A stretch of 64,000 bases of DNA, taken from the IMG/VR virus record IMGVR_UViG_3300021964_007369, positions 1 to 64,000 of that record. One strand, given 5' to 3'. The notes below the pieces were generated by a model, which saw only the letters and a program-made list of their open reading frames with translations, searched no databases and was not told where the DNA came from. Source of the DNA: a virus. The position numbers and the translations under genes are program-made. Shown one piece after another: positions 5,484-20,926 of the stretch (positions are counted from its first letter, which is position 1; every line of letters starts with the position of its first letter).

Positions 5484-5996
5484 ATGCTACAACAAGAAAG
5501 ATATTATGAAGGTATGGTACGTATGATGAAAGAAGAAGATAAAAAACTCTATATGGAGAATAAGGTAAATAGATCTATATGGGTTACATTCAAAAAAGAG
5601 GGTATACACAAATACCCGGCGGCGCTCGAAGATCCGAAATTAGCAACTGGAGACTGGGATGATGTTTCGTTTCTTGGTTATCCTCATCGTCATATTTTCC
5701 ATTTCAGGGTGCAAATCCAAGTGTTCCACGACGATAGAGATATCGAATTCATCCAGTTCAAAAGATGGCTCGAAAGACTCTACTCAGGAGCCAATTCAGG
5801 AAACAATAATCAAGGAAGTGAAGAACAGAGCTCAACCGACTCTGACGTGCTCCTTTTAGATTACAAAAGCTGTGAGATGATTGCAGATGAATTGTATGAA
5901 AAGATTAACAACAAATATCCAGGCCGGTTTGTTGAAATTGAAGTTGCCGAAGACGGCGAAAACGGCTGTAACATAAAATATCCAACTACCCTCTAA
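5484..5996 (+). CDS. QueD/6-pyruvoyl-tetrahydropterin-synthase-like T-fold protein
   Basis: The order of motifs follows QueD. An early His in EGIHKYPAA corresponds to the FxAAH segment. PHRHIFHFRVQIQV corresponds to the HGH zinc-binding strand. IEFIQFKRWLE matches the MxxDFxxLK helix. KSCEMIADELYEKI matches the SxExLAxxI helix, and VEIEVAEDGENG the final strand with its Glu. QueD turns dihydroneopterin triphosphate into carboxytetrahydropterin for 7-deazaguanine synthesis. A Ser/Asn/Gln-rich insert (about residues 96-115) is unusual and is read in another frame as a lipoprotein ORF. The start is uncertain: ATG 5484 lies before the predicted transcript start, so ATG 5523, preceded by AAGG, is a good alternative. 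The assignment is from remote similarity. Confidence 0.6.
   Translation: MLQQERYYEGMVRMMKEEDKKLYMENKVNRSIWVTFKKEGIHKYPAALEDPKLATGDWDDVSFLGYPHRHIFHFRVQIQVFHDDRDIEFIQFKRWLERLYSGANSGNNNQGSEEQSSTDSDVLLLDYKSCEMIADELYEKINNKYPGRFVEIEVAEDGENGCNIKYPTTL
5659..5859 (+). CDS. Candidate small lipoprotein fully embedded (+1 frame) in the QueD-like gene
   Basis: This 66-residue frame begins with two Met and a hydrophobic stretch (FLVILIVIFSIS) followed by Gly-Cys, a good lipobox with Cys18. The mature part is short, polar and Ser/Thr/Lys-rich. GGAG lies 6 bases before the ATG, an ideal Shine-Dalgarno. The overall form resembles the outer-membrane spanin (Rz1-like) lipoproteins, which are often embedded in other genes. 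The usual host of such an overlap, an inner-membrane spanin, is not what surrounds it. The region coincides with a low-complexity insert in the QueD-like protein. It could still be a chance frame. Confidence 0.42.
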   Translation: MMFRFLVILIVIFSISGCKSKCSTTIEISNSSSSKDGSKDSTQEPIQETIIKEVKNRAQPTLTCSF

Positions 5997-6020: not shown

Positions 6021-6257
6021 ATGGCAAATTTTGATCGTGAAGTATATAATACGATTTTTAATGATATCGATACTTTTAAAGAGTTTTGTGCAACTGCATG
6101 GAACTTAGGTTTCGAAAGCGGATTTAAGTTTGATGAAAAGAACTTATACAACAGTAAAAGCTACGAATGGAGAGCTTACCAGAACTATTTAAAATATGGC
6201 AAACCACCTAAGCCTCGTGAACGTAAACCTGGTGGACGATTTAACCGGAGGAACTAA
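6021..6257 (+). CDS. Small basic phage protein of unknown function
   Basis: The 78-residue product starting MANFDREV has an aromatic-rich helical core and a strongly basic Pro/Arg tail (PPKPRERKPGGRFNRRN), which suggests nucleic-acid or protein binding. I prefer ATG 6021, preceded by AAAAGGA, over the in-frame ATG at 5997. The stop is fused to the next gene's ATG (TAATG). No family was recognised. Confidence 0.6.
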   Translation: MANFDREVYNTIFNDIDTFKEFCATAWNLGFESGFKFDEKNLYNSKSYEWRAYQNYLKYGKPPKPRERKPGGRFNRRN

Positions 6258-7303
6258 TGACTATTCATATTGTAGATATTGAAGCAGTAGACACACGTTA
6301 TACTAAGCAATGGAAAGAGTATCTTCCAAAGCAACTTCAACGAGCTACAAACGAAGACGTAAATGTTATTAGTGGAGGAGAGACGCCTCAGGCTACAACG
6401 CCTGGTGCATTTCTTAACTTTGGAGGAACAAACGTCTACAAAAGTAAACAATTAGAAACTATTGGAGAAATGTTTTGTAATGGAACTGTTAAAGATGGTG
6501 ACTATTTTCTCTATACCGATGCCTGGAATCCTACAGTTATACAACTACGCTACATGTCAGAACTACTTGGTGTTGACATTGCTATTGGTGGTCTCTGGCA
6601 TGCAGGTAGTTATGATCCACAAGATTTTCTAGGCAGGCTTATAGGAGACAAACCTTGGGTAAGACATGCTGAACAATCAATGTACGAATGTTATGATGAT
6701 AACTTTTTTGCAAGCGAGTTTCATATTAAACTGTTTGCTAAAAGTTTAGAGATTGACAGTTCTAAAACACATCGAGTTGGTTGGCCTATGGAGTATTTAA
6801 AGAACAGTTTAGATAGTTACAAAAACATGGAGAAAAGAGATTTAATTTTATTTCCGCATCGTGTTGCTCCTGAGAAACAAATTGAAATTTTTAGAGATCT
6901 AAAAACACAATTACCGCAATATGATTTTGTAGTATGTCAAGAACAACAACTAACTAAAAACGAATACCATAATTTGTTAGGCGAAGCTAAACTTGTGTTT
7001 AGTGCTAACCTACAAGAAACACTTGGTATTAGTTGGTATGAAGGCGCACTAGTAGATACTATTCCTATGGTTCCTGATAGACTTAGTTATAGTGAGATGG
7101 CATTGCCTGAGTTTAAGTATCCAAGTGAGTGGACTGAAGACTATGATGCTTACTTACATAATAGAGATAAAGTAGTTGCACAAATTGTTGAGTACATGGA
7201 AAACTACGAAGACTTTATACCAAGCATTAGTAAACAAATTAATAAGCTACATAAAGAATTTTTTAGTGGTAAAGAACTTTACAGGGTTATTGCAGATGAA
7301 TGA
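6257..7303 (+). CDS. GT-B type glycosyltransferase (GT4-like)
   Basis: The 348-residue protein shows a two-domain GT-B pattern. The C-terminal half has LFPHRVAPEKQIEIF (about residue 200), the strand-loop that opens the nucleotide-sugar domain. Later LQETLGISWYEGAL supplies the E-x7-E-like acidic helix typical of retaining GT4 enzymes, followed by IPMVPDRLSY. The N-terminal acceptor domain is not recognisable. Phage enzymes of this kind glucosylate modified DNA bases or decorate surface sugars. The nearby deazaguanine genes allow the first, but there is no direct evidence. It joins its upstream gene at a TAATG and overlaps the next gene by 8 bases. Confidence 0.65.
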   Translation: MTIHIVDIEAVDTRYTKQWKEYLPKQLQRATNEDVNVISGGETPQATTPGAFLNFGGTNVYKSKQLETIGEMFCNGTVKDGDYFLYTDAWNPTVIQLRYMSELLGVDIAIGGLWHAGSYDPQDFLGRLIGDKPWVRHAEQSMYECYDDNFFASEFHIKLFAKSLEIDSSKTHRVGWPMEYLKNSLDSYKNMEKRDLILFPHRVAPEKQIEIFRDLKTQLPQYDFVVCQEQQLTKNEYHNLLGEAKLVFSANLQETLGISWYEGALVDTIPMVPDRLSYSEMALPEFKYPSEWTEDYDAYLHNRDKVVAQIVEYMENYEDFIPSISKQINKLHKEFFSGKELYRVIADE

Positions 7304-10387: not shown

Positions 10388-11077
10388 ATGAATAAAAGCG
10401 AACAAATTAGAGCAAAGTTAGAAGCGGCAGGTGACCGCTACTGGGCTGGCGATAATATTAGTCACGTATTAGAAGAAGGTGACAAACAACAGTTGATTGA
10501 CGAGGCAACTGTAGCATTTGAACAAGTGCTAGATAAACTTGTTATTGATAGAAAGACTGATCCTAACAGTAAGGATACTGGTAGACGTCTTGCTAAAATG
10601 TATTTTAACGAATTGATGGTTGGACGTTACGACCCAATGCCTAATGCAACTGCATTTCCTAATCACATAGAAGATGGGTATAAAGGTATGTTGGTTGTAC
10701 GTAGTGAACTTAAAAGTGTTTGTTCACATCACCATCAACCGGTAACGGGTGTTGCGTATATTGGAATCATCGCCGCGGACACATTAATTGGTCTGTCGAA
10801 ATACACACGTATAGCACAGTGGTGTGCGAGACGTGGCACCCTACAAGAAGAATTAAACAATGACATTGCTAGAGAAATTATGAAGGCAACTGGCAGTGAG
10901 AATGTTGGTGTTTACATTCAAGCAACACACGGTTGTTGCGAAAACAGAGGTATTGGTGCTCATAGTAGTTTAACACAGACAACAGTACTACACGGAGCGT
11001 TTGCCGATGACGCAGGTACAAAGAAAGAGTTTATGGATAATATTAAACTACAACAACAATTTGCGGCAGGTGTGTAA
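10388..11077 (+). CDS. folE: GTP cyclohydrolase I (FolE)
   Basis: The 229-residue protein matches type I GTP cyclohydrolase, which converts GTP to dihydroneopterin triphosphate. Zinc ligands are visible in CSHHHQPV (Cys112, His115) and in HGCCENRGI (Cys183), and the core ends in SSLTQT. GRDTGRRLAK-like and LSKYTRIAQWCARR segments are also family hallmarks. It has its own perfect promoter and a strong Shine-Dalgarno. QueE follows directly. Folate synthesis is an alternative role, but with QueD-like, QueE and TGT-like genes nearby the 7-deazaguanine route is favoured. Confidence 0.92.
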   Translation: MNKSEQIRAKLEAAGDRYWAGDNISHVLEEGDKQQLIDEATVAFEQVLDKLVIDRKTDPNSKDTGRRLAKMYFNELMVGRYDPMPNATAFPNHIEDGYKGMLVVRSELKSVCSHHHQPVTGVAYIGIIAADTLIGLSKYTRIAQWCARRGTLQEELNNDIAREIMKATGSENVGVYIQATHGCCENRGIGAHSSLTQTTVLHGAFADDAGTKKEFMDNIKLQQQFAAGV

Positions 11078-15003: not shown

Positions 15004-15050
15004 GTATATATTAAATGAGTACAGACACTACAACTTCTAGAGAGGCTAAT

Positions 15051-16136
15051 ATGGAAAACATCGCAACACGTACTGTCACACCTAATGGGGCTAAAAAATC
15101 AATTACACGAGCTTTTAAAAAGCAACGTCCAATTTTTATATGGGGTCCCCCAGGTATTGGCAAATCAGACATTGTACATCAAATTGGAGCATCTATGGAT
15201 GCACATACAATTGATGTTCGACTATCACTTTGGGAACCTACAGACATTAAAGGTATTCCTTATTACAGTGCAAATGACAACTGTATGTCTTGGGCACCAC
15301 CACAAGAACTACCTACTGCCGAAATGGCAAAGAAACATAAATGGATTATTTTGTTTTTAGACGAAATGAATTCAGCGGCACCAGCAGTACAAGCGGCCGC
15401 ATACCAACTTATTCTTAACCGTAAGGTTGGTACTTATAAATTACCAGACAATGTTCTTATTGTAGCCGCAGGTAACCGTGATGCTGACAAAGGCGTTACG
15501 TATCGTATGCCAGCACCGTTGGCTAACCGTTTTGTTCACTTAGAAATGGCTGTGGACTTTGATGATTGGTTTCAATGGGCTGTAGCAAATAACATCCATA
15601 AAGATGTTGTAGGTTACCTTACTTTTAGTAAAAAAGATTTATATGATTTCGATCCTAAGTCACCAAGTCGTTCTTTTGCAACACCTCGTTCATGGTCGTT
15701 TGTATCAGAATTACTTGAGGATGACGATGACGAAAATACAACTACTGACCTAGTTAGTGGTTCAGTTGGTGAAGGCCTTGGAGTGAAGTTTATGGCACAC
15801 CGTAAAGTTGCTGGGCAGATGCCTAACCCTACCGACATTCTTGCAGGTAAGGTTAAGGAGCTCAACAATAAGGAAATCAGTGCGATGTATTCCTTAACAG
15901 TGTCTCTTTGCTACGAGCTTAAAGAAGCCTGCGACAAAAACGATAAAAAGTTTGACGACAAAGTTAATAACTTTTTACGTTTTGCTATGGATAACTTCGA
16001 CACTGAATTGGTTGTAATGGGTATTAAATTAGCCCTCACACAATATTCATTACCTATCGATCCAGACGAAGTTAAGTGTTTTGACGAATTTCATGAACGT
16101 TTTGGCAAGTATATTACTGCCGCACAAAAGGCTTAA
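15051..16136 (+). CDS. MoxR-family AAA+ ATPase
   Basis: The 361-residue protein has Walker A GPPGIGKS (32-39), Walker B LFLDE (101-105) and a sensor 1-like IVAAGNRD. MoxR proteins are AAA+ chaperones that act on a partner with a von Willebrand A domain, and such a protein is encoded next. ATG 15051 has the Shine-Dalgarno AGAGAGG; ATG 15015 is an in-frame alternative. The gene is followed by a 12-bp hairpin. In a phage the pair may remodel or insert a metal into a target complex, but the target is not evident. Confidence 0.82.
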   Translation: MENIATRTVTPNGAKKSITRAFKKQRPIFIWGPPGIGKSDIVHQIGASMDAHTIDVRLSLWEPTDIKGIPYYSANDNCMSWAPPQELPTAEMAKKHKWIILFLDEMNSAAPAVQAAAYQLILNRKVGTYKLPDNVLIVAAGNRDADKGVTYRMPAPLANRFVHLEMAVDFDDWFQWAVANNIHKDVVGYLTFSKKDLYDFDPKSPSRSFATPRSWSFVSELLEDDDDENTTTDLVSGSVGEGLGVKFMAHRKVAGQMPNPTDILAGKVKELNNKEISAMYSLTVSLCYELKEACDKNDKKFDDKVNNFLRFAMDNFDTELVVMGIKLALTQYSLPIDPDEVKCFDEFHERFGKYITAAQKA

Positions 16137-16141
16137 CCAAA

Positions 16142-16171
16142 AAAGAGTAGGAGTTAAGTCTCCTACTCTTT
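16142..16171 (+). terminator. Perfect 12-bp hairpin after the MoxR gene
   Basis: AAAGAGTAGGAG (16142-16153) pairs exactly with CTCCTACTCTTT (16160-16171) across a 6-base loop. An A-run precedes it and the U-run after is short, so it is a plausible but weak intrinsic terminator, possibly an mRNA-stabilising stem. A new promoter begins 12 bases later. Confidence 0.6.
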
Positions 16172-16182
16172 ACCAATCTTGG

Positions 16183-16211
16183 TTGACATTTAGCGTTAAT
16201 GATCGTATAAT
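16183..16211 (+). promoter_or_regulatory. Perfect sigma70 promoter for the VWA gene
   Basis: TTGACA at 16183-16188, TATAAT at 16206-16211, 17-base spacer; ATG 16236 follows with AAGGAGAG upstream. Confidence 0.8.
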
Positions 16212-16235
16212 TAATAACATAGCAAGGAGAGAAAC

Positions 16236-17552
16236 ATGAGTGCAGTAGCAGGTAAAAAACATTGGTCACCAAATCCAGACATTACTCCAGACGAACTGGA
16301 AGAAATGCGTGTTGATGTACTTGATCGTATTATTGTAGCACGAATTGGTCTACTTTTAAGACATCCTTTCTTTGGTAATATGGCAACACGTCTGCGTATT
16401 AAGAGTGCAGATGACTGGTGCCCAACTGCCGCAGTTGACGGTAAAAATTTATATTTTAACACACAGTTTTTTAATTCAATGGATAATAAAGAAATTGAAT
16501 TTGTAATTGCACACGAAATTTTACATTGTGTATTTGATCACTTAGAACGTAGGGCTTGGCAAGGTCGTGACTTAGATCCTATGGTTAGTAATATTGCACA
16601 AGACTATATTGTAAATAATACACTTGTAAGAGATAATATTGGTACTAAGCCTAAACTAGTAGACTGTTTTCAAGACTTTAAATATGACGGTTGGACTTCA
16701 GAAGAAGTATATGAAGATATTTTTGAAAAGTATGACAATGAAGAACTTCAAGCATTAGGTGAACTTTTAGATGAACATCTTGATCTAAATGATAGTGATG
16801 CTGGCGGAGCACCTAATGAAAATGATCCTAAGAAAGATACAAATAATGATAACGGCAATAAGAGTGTAAAGGCACCAAAGTATTCGAAAGAAGAACTAAA
16901 GAAAATTAGAGACAGTGTAAAAGAAGGTATGATGCAGGCGGCACAAGCGGCCGGTGCAGGTAATCTTCCTAAAGAAGTTCAACGTATGATTACTGAGTTA
17001 ACTGAACCTAAGATGAACTGGCGTGAGCTTATTCGTCAACAGATTCAGTCAACTATTAGAAATGATTACACTTTTGCTCGTCCTTCACGTAAAGGATGGC
17101 ATACTGGAGTTATACTTCCAGGTATGAACTTTGATGAACAAATTGATCTTTGTATTGCATTTGATATGAGTGGTTCAATTGGTGGCGATATGCCTAGAGA
17201 TTTCTTAAGTGAAGTTAAAGGCATATGTGACGAATTTAAAGAATATAACATTAAGATTTGGTGTTTTGACACAAGTGTTTATGGCGAACAAGATTTTGCT
17301 TCAGACAACGGTGATGACATTAGTGAGTATCAGCCTATTGGTGGAGGAGGTACTGATTTTGATGTGAACTGGACATATATGAAAGAAAATGATATTATTC
17401 CTAAAAAGTTTATCATGTTTACAGATGGTTATCCTTGGAGTAGTTGGGGCGATCCAGACTATTGTGATACTGTATTCGTAATACATAGTAATAGAAAAAA
17501 AGATATCCAGGCACCTTTTGGAACTACTGCACACTATGAAGCAAATGTCTAA
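16236..17552 (+). CDS. VWA-domain protein with an N-terminal zincin-like motif (MoxR partner)
   Basis: The 438-residue protein is the usual MoxR partner type. HEILHCVFDHLERR (from His93) is an HExxH zinc-protease-like motif, as in DUF2201/VWA-like metallopeptidases. An acidic, low-complexity linker follows at about 170-210. The C-terminal VWA domain opens with the MIDAS motif DMSGS (310-314), followed by GGGGTDF and MFTDGYP. It is placed one promoter after the MoxR gene, so the two are co-regulated but separately transcribed. Whether the peptidase is active cannot be judged. Confidence 0.8.
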   Translation: MSAVAGKKHWSPNPDITPDELEEMRVDVLDRIIVARIGLLLRHPFFGNMATRLRIKSADDWCPTAAVDGKNLYFNTQFFNSMDNKEIEFVIAHEILHCVFDHLERRAWQGRDLDPMVSNIAQDYIVNNTLVRDNIGTKPKLVDCFQDFKYDGWTSEEVYEDIFEKYDNEELQALGELLDEHLDLNDSDAGGAPNENDPKKDTNNDNGNKSVKAPKYSKEELKKIRDSVKEGMMQAAQAAGAGNLPKEVQRMITELTEPKMNWRELIRQQIQSTIRNDYTFARPSRKGWHTGVILPGMNFDEQIDLCIAFDMSGSIGGDMPRDFLSEVKGICDEFKEYNIKIWCFDTSVYGEQDFASDNGDDISEYQPIGGGGTDFDVNWTYMKENDIIPKKFIMFTDGYPWSSWGDPDYCDTVFVIHSNRKKDIQAPFGTTAHYEANV

Positions 17553-19786: not shown

Positions 19787-20926
19787 ATGTCACTACGTTT
19801 GAGAAGAGGAACAGACGGCGAACGTCTAGCTATAACGCCAGAAGCAGGCGAACTAATATTCACTACGGATACTAAAACAGTATACGTTGGTGATGGATCT
19901 ACTGTAGGCGGTGTTGTTGTAAGTGCCGGCGGTGTTACTATTGAAGACTTAGGAGATACTAATATAGTATCAGTACAAGACGGAGATATATTAGGTTACA
20001 ATTCTTCAAACAGCAAATGGGAAGCAACTAGATACGTTACTACAGATATTACAGGTAGTGTATTTGCTAAAGATTCAGGAGTGCTTGTAGACTCAGATGC
20101 AGGGTTAGTTACAGGTACAGTAGACACAGATAGTGTTACAGCGTCAGGAACAATTACAGCAAACGCATTTGTTGGTGATATTACAGGCACAGTTACAGGA
20201 GATGTAGTAGGTGACGTGACTGGTAATCTAGTAGGTACTACAACAGGATATCATACAGGTGACGTAAGCGGTAGTTTATTTGCTATTGATTCTAGTGTAA
20301 TGGTTGATGCTATTAATGGCGATTTATTTGCAAATTCAACAAACACACGTGATGTAACGAACACACAAGGTACTTTAGTTTTAAGAGAATCTGCTTCTGC
20401 TGATAACAATAGAATTGAAATATCTTCTACTCAGATACAATTTATAGCTACAGGTCCATTAGTTGCTAATAACAACCATTTAAACGTTCAAAAGAACGAT
20501 GAAGCACATAGAATCACTATAGGTAGAGCAAACACAGATAGTAGTGCTTTTACTCCTACAACAGAAATAGCAAGACGTGTTTTCACAAGTAAGCAAGGTA
20601 CAGATGATTCTACAGCATTATTAACAGAAACTATTTCACAACAACAATGGACATTACTTCCTTCTCCAAACGGAACTATTGACTACACAAAAACAATACG
20701 TTTCCATAATGAAGGAAAATTAGGTATTAACGGAACAGTAAGTTCAGAGCCTGATGCAAACCTACATGTAACAGGTAATGCAAAACTTACTGAAGAATTG
20801 TTACTTGGTAATATGACGACTACAGAACGTGATGCATTGACAGCCGCTAACGGAATGATGTTGTATAACACAACTGATAATAAATTCCAAGGTTACGAAA
20901 ACGGCGCTTGGGTTAACTTAATTTAA
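19787..20926 (+). CDS. Tail-fibre-like structural protein
   Basis: The 379-residue protein begins MSLRLRRGTDGERLAIT..., then ELIFTTDTKTVYVGDGST, the N-terminal module common to phage fibre and receptor-binding proteins. The middle has short Gly/Val/Thr repeats (GDITGTVTGDVVGDVTGN), giving a beta-helical look, and the end has MLYNTTDNKFQGYENGAWV, a common tail-fibre C-terminal segment. It probably forms a trimeric fibre. It is on the plus strand while the other tail genes lie on the minus strand at 49-64 kb, so it is a separate late unit. Confidence 0.75.
   Translation: MSLRLRRGTDGERLAITPEAGELIFTTDTKTVYVGDGSTVGGVVVSAGGVTIEDLGDTNIVSVQDGDILGYNSSNSKWEATRYVTTDITGSVFAKDSGVLVDSDAGLVTGTVDTDSVTASGTITANAFVGDITGTVTGDVVGDVTGNLVGTTTGYHTGDVSGSLFAIDSSVMVDAINGDLFANSTNTRDVTNTQGTLVLRESASADNNRIEISSTQIQFIATGPLVANNNHLNVQKNDEAHRITIGRANTDSSAFTPTTEIARRVFTSKQGTDDSTALLTETISQQQWTLLPSPNGTIDYTKTIRFHNEGKLGINGTVSSEPDANLHVTGNAKLTEELLLGNMTTTERDALTAANGMMLYNTTDNKFQGYENGAWVNLI

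Follow-up and report, generated by a model that had tools for sequence, protein, structure and literature searches.

A candidate overprinted lipoprotein gene within a phage QueD-like gene

The locus and its two reading frames

The window analyzed here, from an uncultured aquatic phage, covers the first 64 kb of an IMG/VR virus record of 91.8 kb, which is itself a partial genome (G000). The gene under study (Table 1), which we call the outer gene, had been labeled QueD-like in the initial annotation. At the sequence level, we observed only a weak match of its product to the QueD-like family phrog_2389 (E=0.0026) and no match in Pfam. In a Foldseek comparison of an AlphaFold2 model of the protein (pLDDT 81), all best PDB matches were E. 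coli QueD (TM 0.63-0.69 by target length, E 6e-4), and the model has a T-fold with QueD as its nearest structure. Thus, the label is correct by fold: the outer gene is QueD-like as far as its predicted structure goes, with a putative enzymatic role. In named phages, the outer gene is adjoined by FolE, QueE, QueD or TGT-like genes, and a FolE gene is found in the window as well (10388-11077); such a neighborhood is the context of 7-deazaguanine DNA modification (PMC6884629). Elsewhere in the window, we noted a pair that is unusual for a phage, a MoxR-type AAA ATPase and then a DUF2201 metallopeptidase/VWA protein (15015-17552), as well as a protein whose N-terminal domain is of the major-tropism-determinant type (Mtd_N; 19787-20926), possibly the target of a diversity-generating retroelement.

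Within the outer gene lies a second ORF, as had been claimed initially, with its start at ATG 5659 (alternative ATG at 5662), 66 codons and a TAG stop at 5857-5859; its translation is MMFRFLVILIVIFSISGCKSKCSTTIEISNSSSSKDGSKDSTQEPIQETIIKEVKNRAQPTLTCSF. The hydrophobic signal and the lipobox ending at Cys18 that had been described for this ORF are present in the sequence (MMFRFLVILIVIFSISG, followed directly by C18), as is the GGAG upstream of the start, although the outer frame in part imposes the hydrophobicity and largely dictates the GGAG. The lipobox of the window, ISGC, conforms to the pattern [LVI][ASTVI][GAS]C. Among the 37 relatives that keep the frame (frame-keepers), ISGC was found in 21 and TSGC in 13, the latter deviating at -3 and being suboptimal. 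The residue that follows the lipid cysteine is A, V, G, K or E in the 37 frame-keepers and never Asp. In E. coli, this residue governs the sorting of lipoproteins (the +2 rule), and an outer membrane location is thus predicted.

The predicted mature part comprises 31-51 residues, with a product of 5.3 kDa in the window. It is rich in Ser in the frame-keepers because the outer Ile and Phe codons end in C; frame-less relatives would read Leu or Phe at these places. Besides the three cysteines of Table 1, Gly17, Ser29 and Gly37 are invariant in the 28 aligned inner proteins, Cys18 included. AlphaFold2 placed a helix at residues 3-16 of the inner protein and gave no confident fold overall. The low-complexity insert that had been noticed in the outer frame (SGANSGNNNQGSEEQSSTDS) is indeed there, and was modeled as a disordered loop with a pLDDT of <50.

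Table 1. Features of the outer gene and of the ORF embedded in it (window coordinates)
Feature	Position	Strand	Remarks
Outer gene	5484..5996	+	170 aa; phrog_17812; QueD/6-PTPS-like fold
GGAG, Shine-Dalgarno-like	5649..5652	+	6 bases 5' of ATG; largely set by outer Thr-Gly-Asp codons
Embedded lipoprotein gene (predicted)	5659..5859	+	66 aa; +1 frame of 5484-5996, wholly inside
Predicted signal peptide	5659..5709	+	17 residues; n-region Arg4 from outer Ser TCG (34/35 frame-keepers)
Predicted lipid-attachment Cys18	5710..5712	+	From outer Val76 GTG
Cys22	5722..5724	+	From outer Val80 GTG; invariant in 28 aligned inner proteins
Low-complexity loop of outer protein	5790..5840	+	Outer residues 103-119; inner frame there QEPIQETIIKEVKNRAQP; frame-keepers only
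Cys64	5848..5850	+	Third residue from C-terminus; invariant in 28 aligned inner proteins

Comparative evidence for a coding +1 frame

A single genome offers little proof that such an ORF is a gene, because a conserved peptide of the outer protein (DDVSFLGYPHRHIFHFRV) forces a hydrophobic stretch on the +1 frame, in which hydrophobic codons are frequent and stop codons can arise at few places; the outer FLGYPHRHIFHF likewise imposes part of this hydrophobicity. Moreover, outer Asp codons often yield an ATG in the +1 frame and outer Thr-Gly-Asp codons a Shine-Dalgarno-like AGG(N)GA, and frame-less relatives show both. Since start, ribosome-binding motif and hydrophobicity are dictated to this extent by the outer peptide, and since many relatives do without the frame, one might suppose that the open frame and its lipobox-like motif merely reflect a conserved outer peptide and shared ancestry. 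A comparative test was thus needed.

Relatives were recruited with the outer protein (L001-L080, plus L117-L196 with an L102-type query), giving 137 distinct segments, and separately with the inner protein (L081-L104). A combined set of 89 genes, which is partly inner-recruited, contained 37 distinct frame-keepers, all with an open frame, and 52 frame-less relatives. In the outer-only set (n=137), the frame was open, that is, stop-free over the tested stretch, in 30 of 30 segments with Gly-Cys at the lipobox compared to 22 of 107 without it (p=2e-16), and recruitment therefore does not explain the open frame. After thinning to <80% identity, the counts were 10/10 and 7/39, respectively (p=2e-6). 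When synonymous codons were resampled with the codon usage seen outside the overlap, an open frame together with lipobox and ATG arose in about 0.05-0.3% of the trials per outer gene. Shared ancestry is only partly accounted for in these p-values and in the one for column entropy given below; thinning and the comparison with frame-less relatives serve as a guard against it.

The synonymous sites of the outer gene were informative as well. Between diverged pairs of frame-keepers, the pairwise synonymous difference was 0.34 inside the overlap versus 0.51 outside, whereas frame-less relatives showed 0.54 and 0.49, respectively. The GC-minus-NON difference in column entropy also distinguished the inside from the outside of the overlap (p=3e-6), with the lipobox codons excluded. 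The constraint on synonymous sites that the initial annotation had proposed to look for is thus found in the overlap, and in frame-keepers only. At individual positions, rare outer codons are fixed at places on which the inner frame depends, unlike in the rest of the outer gene: Ser62 is TCG in 34/35 frame-keepers (4/52 others), Leu64 is CTT in 36/37, Val80 is GTG in 33/37 (10/52 others) and Ile87 is ATC in 37/37 (4/51 others). Val76 is GTG in 37/37 compared to 6/51 others, the Cys18 position being the criterion by which the group was selected. In L020 and L030, the start is kept despite a changed outer peptide and lies two codons further upstream.

Constraint that is specific to the overlap and to the frame-keepers, at high synonymous divergence, together with the 30/30 openness and the resampling frequencies, makes it very unlikely that the ORF is not a gene. 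Codon constraint could also stem from RNA folding or from an antisense gene and not from a +1 protein, and one antisense frame is in fact open in 62% of the frame-keepers versus 6% of the others. This openness is incomplete, however, and can be explained by avoidance of TTA, CTA and TCA sense codons, while the +1 frame is open in 100% and is the sole fully open alternative frame in the 37 frame-keepers. No convincing conserved RNA fold was obtained (consensus of only -6.7 kcal/mol over 165 columns, double changes at 2/31 pairs), and we consider either source of the constraint extremely improbable. On the comparative evidence, the +1 frame is coding and under selection, and ORF 5659-5859 is very probably a real overprinted gene, the translation of which we infer.

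Distribution of the frame and of the outer insert

A search of 15 records with an inner-protein profile found a single full copy per genome, located only inside the outer gene, and in frame-less records gave only weak, usually interrupted matches. A tblastn search of named phages with the inner protein returned no match; in the ten of them with an outer gene that were checked (Phosso, Paride, ACP17, RHph_I1_18, X1, Bakedbeans, D479, Ahp1, BUCT-ZZ01 and phi13:1), there was no lipobox and the +1 frame contained stops. A weak match of the inner protein to phrog_9170 (E 7e-4) was set aside, as the same family matched unrelated control bacteria. In the literature searched, with partial coverage, no paper describing ORF 5659-5859 was found.

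On trees of the outer gene, which are poorly resolved, the lipoprotein trait requires 10-12 changes, indicating that it was often lost, regained or exchanged. Separate frame-keepers occur in a second clade of the outer gene (L102 type); they have a shorter, Cys-poorer tail, in which the C-terminal Cys is absent and the second Cys mostly absent. Gene order was alike in frame-keepers and frame-less relatives, and no gene co-occurred with frame-keepers only. Loss of the frame in relatives that keep the outer gene had been regarded at the outset as evidence against the ORF. Many relatives show exactly this, which refutes universal conservation, but the case for coding stands, the frame being either kept whole or visibly abandoned.

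The insert in the outer protein is confined to frame-keepers, and no frame-less relative carries it. Within it, the inner frame reads as a repeated (Q)E.I..EVK.RAQPT.KC pattern. It had been suggested that the second frame shapes this insert. In line with this, the inner frame is slightly better conserved there than the low-complexity outer text (identities of 0.66 and 0.59, respectively); however, the insert is dispensable for the frame, as many frame-keepers are insert-free, most of their inner proteins being 51-54 aa long.

Two further observations were made among these records. A 335-kb contig assigned to a Neomarinimicrobiota MAG (L197, PBPT01000016.1) carries the phage outer gene with its embedded ORF as well as a spanin pair; it is probably a misbinned phage, or else a hint at the host. 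In the window, another +1-type ORF (6462-6632) lies inside a 348-aa gene (6257-7303) and is open in 40/89 relatives regardless of the lipoprotein frame, probably as a by-product.

Possible roles of the embedded lipoprotein

The initial annotation had likened the product to an Rz1-like outer membrane spanin. In this reading, the ORF would be an o-spanin carried in a non-spanin gene that partners a distant i-spanin at lysis, perhaps as a second or replacement o-spanin. Size, lipobox, the outer membrane sorting rule and the two periplasmic cysteines fit, two being the commonest cysteine number in o-spanins (PMC6139136). Moreover, no spanin was detected in the partial genome G000 or in the 182-kb G001, and among lipobox ORFs only the embedded one passed the filters in the 91.8-kb record and in G001, so that a spanin role is conceivable in these two. 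(Endolysin matches in these two genomes were rejected, as they correspond to baseplate hub lysozyme-type proteins instead.) However, two frame-keepers possess a complete separate i-/o-spanin cassette. In the 165-kb G002 (L016), the lysis genes lie at 21.7-27.3 kb and include an endolysin, an Rz-like i-spanin (phrog_739), an overlapping lipoprotein (phrog_812), a holin-like gene, DnaJ and Clp, whereas the embedded ORF maps to 50.5 kb; in G003 (L103), a frame-keeper of the second clade, a different i-/o-spanin pair lies at 32.3-33.1 kb and the embedded ORF at 81.0 kb. The cassette of G002, an uncultured phage (L207:2214-7791), also encodes a 91-aa membrane protein; its holin-like gene belongs to phrog_10198, of unassigned function, and its Clp is an ATPase. 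A matching Rz-like pair was found in the frame-keepers G007 (L086) and G008:C57 (L197) as well, and in all four the pair is 20-50 kb away from the embedded ORF. In none of these phages can the embedded ORF encode the only o-spanin. Furthermore, the ORF lies outside the lysis module, no neighboring protein has a transmembrane segment, no i-spanin-like gene adjoins the ORF or was found in G000, and there was no match to an Rz1-like family but only to weak PHROGs of unassigned function. The o-spanin reading is disfavored because several carriers have a separate pair and no membrane protein adjoins the ORF; we regard it as unlikely, and the embedded ORF is probably not the spanin first suspected. 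With embedded spanins of the lambda Rz/Rz1 type (Kongari 2018, PMC6139136), it shares a small +1 lipoprotein gene inside another gene, a lipobox and periplasmic cysteines. It differs from them in that the host gene is a QueD-like enzyme gene and not an i-spanin gene, that several carriers have a separate pair and that no transmembrane partner adjoins.

The product might instead be some other envelope lipoprotein, such as an accessory lysis factor similar to a standalone 58-aa C..C..CSF lipoprotein that is encoded between the o-spanin and holin genes in G013, L256 and L259. The two are similar in size, and both have a lipobox, a Cys soon after the lipid Cys, a C-terminal CSF or similar Cys-x-Phe and a mature part of about 37 residues. 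The standalone protein, however, has a separate gene, located at the o-spanin gene's 3' end and part of a lysis cassette, outside of which the embedded one lies, and the profile comparison was weak (hhalign probability 24%), so that homology is suggestive only. This alternative appears rather unlikely to us. Standalone lipoproteins of this sort were recorded at L244:5919-6092 (-), L256:4001-4174 and L259:4001-4174; they are 52-58 aa long, have an SSC lipobox, a second Cys and a C-terminal CxF, and have no family matches; they sit in a lysis cassette, where they overlap an o-spanin gene at its 3' end.

With moderate confidence, we favor a superinfection-exclusion or other envelope lipoprotein, similar to T5 Llp and phage Rtp Rtp45 in form only. 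Llp and Rtp45 are small outer membrane lipoproteins that exclude superinfecting phages by blocking a receptor (PMC9586334, PMC12685063); Rtp45 has a mass of ~6 kDa and contains an internal disulfide. The embedded protein resembles them in a mature part of a few kDa (a short periplasmic domain, predicted at 31-51 residues), a lipid anchor, a capacity for a disulfide (Rtp45) and a location outside the lysis module, in our case beside FolE and other 7-deazaguanine-type genes. Unlike them, it is embedded in another gene and has a putative function, and searches of the phage collection and of PDB sequences did not relate its sequence to Llp, to Rtp45 or to any other superinfection-exclusion protein. 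In the proposed mechanism, the +1 frame of a QueD-like DNA modification gene would yield a small lipoprotein, expressed probably early or in the middle of infection, as judged from the gene neighborhood alone. Its signal peptide would be cleaved before Cys18, which would be lipidated, and the protein would be sorted to the outer membrane, exposing a mostly unstructured, Ser-rich periplasmic tail in which the two further conserved cysteines may form a disulfide. An early or middle gene module would thereby produce an envelope-modifying lipoprotein, most likely one that blocks a receptor against superinfection. By analogy, we assign the superinfection-exclusion role tentatively, at somewhat less than an even chance; to the whole explanation, an overprinted lipoprotein gene with an envelope role and likely superinfection exclusion, we give a probability of roughly 0.45.

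To our knowledge, the only well-known lipoprotein genes that lie inside other genes are those of o-spanins within i-spanin genes. The one described here lies inside an unrelated enzyme gene, was missed by family libraries and bears codon-level selection across dozens of genomes. As in other overprinted genes of bacteria and viruses (reviewed in PMC8227390; E. coli, PMC4683798 and PMC5960689), a new frame has appeared in an older conserved gene and is patchily distributed; here, by contrast, the predicted product has a recognizable signal for export and lipidation, and the comparative support is strong, for a gene known from sequence alone. It makes a case for the de novo birth of an exported protein, and its envelope function is directly testable. 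Counts of phage lipoproteins and spanins would need to include a search inside genes. In a wider picture, which we regard as doubtful, aquatic T4-like phages would remodel the outer membrane against competing phages with an exported lipoprotein born de novo in a DNA modification gene. The two frames of one DNA stretch would then serve two defenses, one shielding the genome against restriction and the other keeping superinfecting phages off the cell surface.
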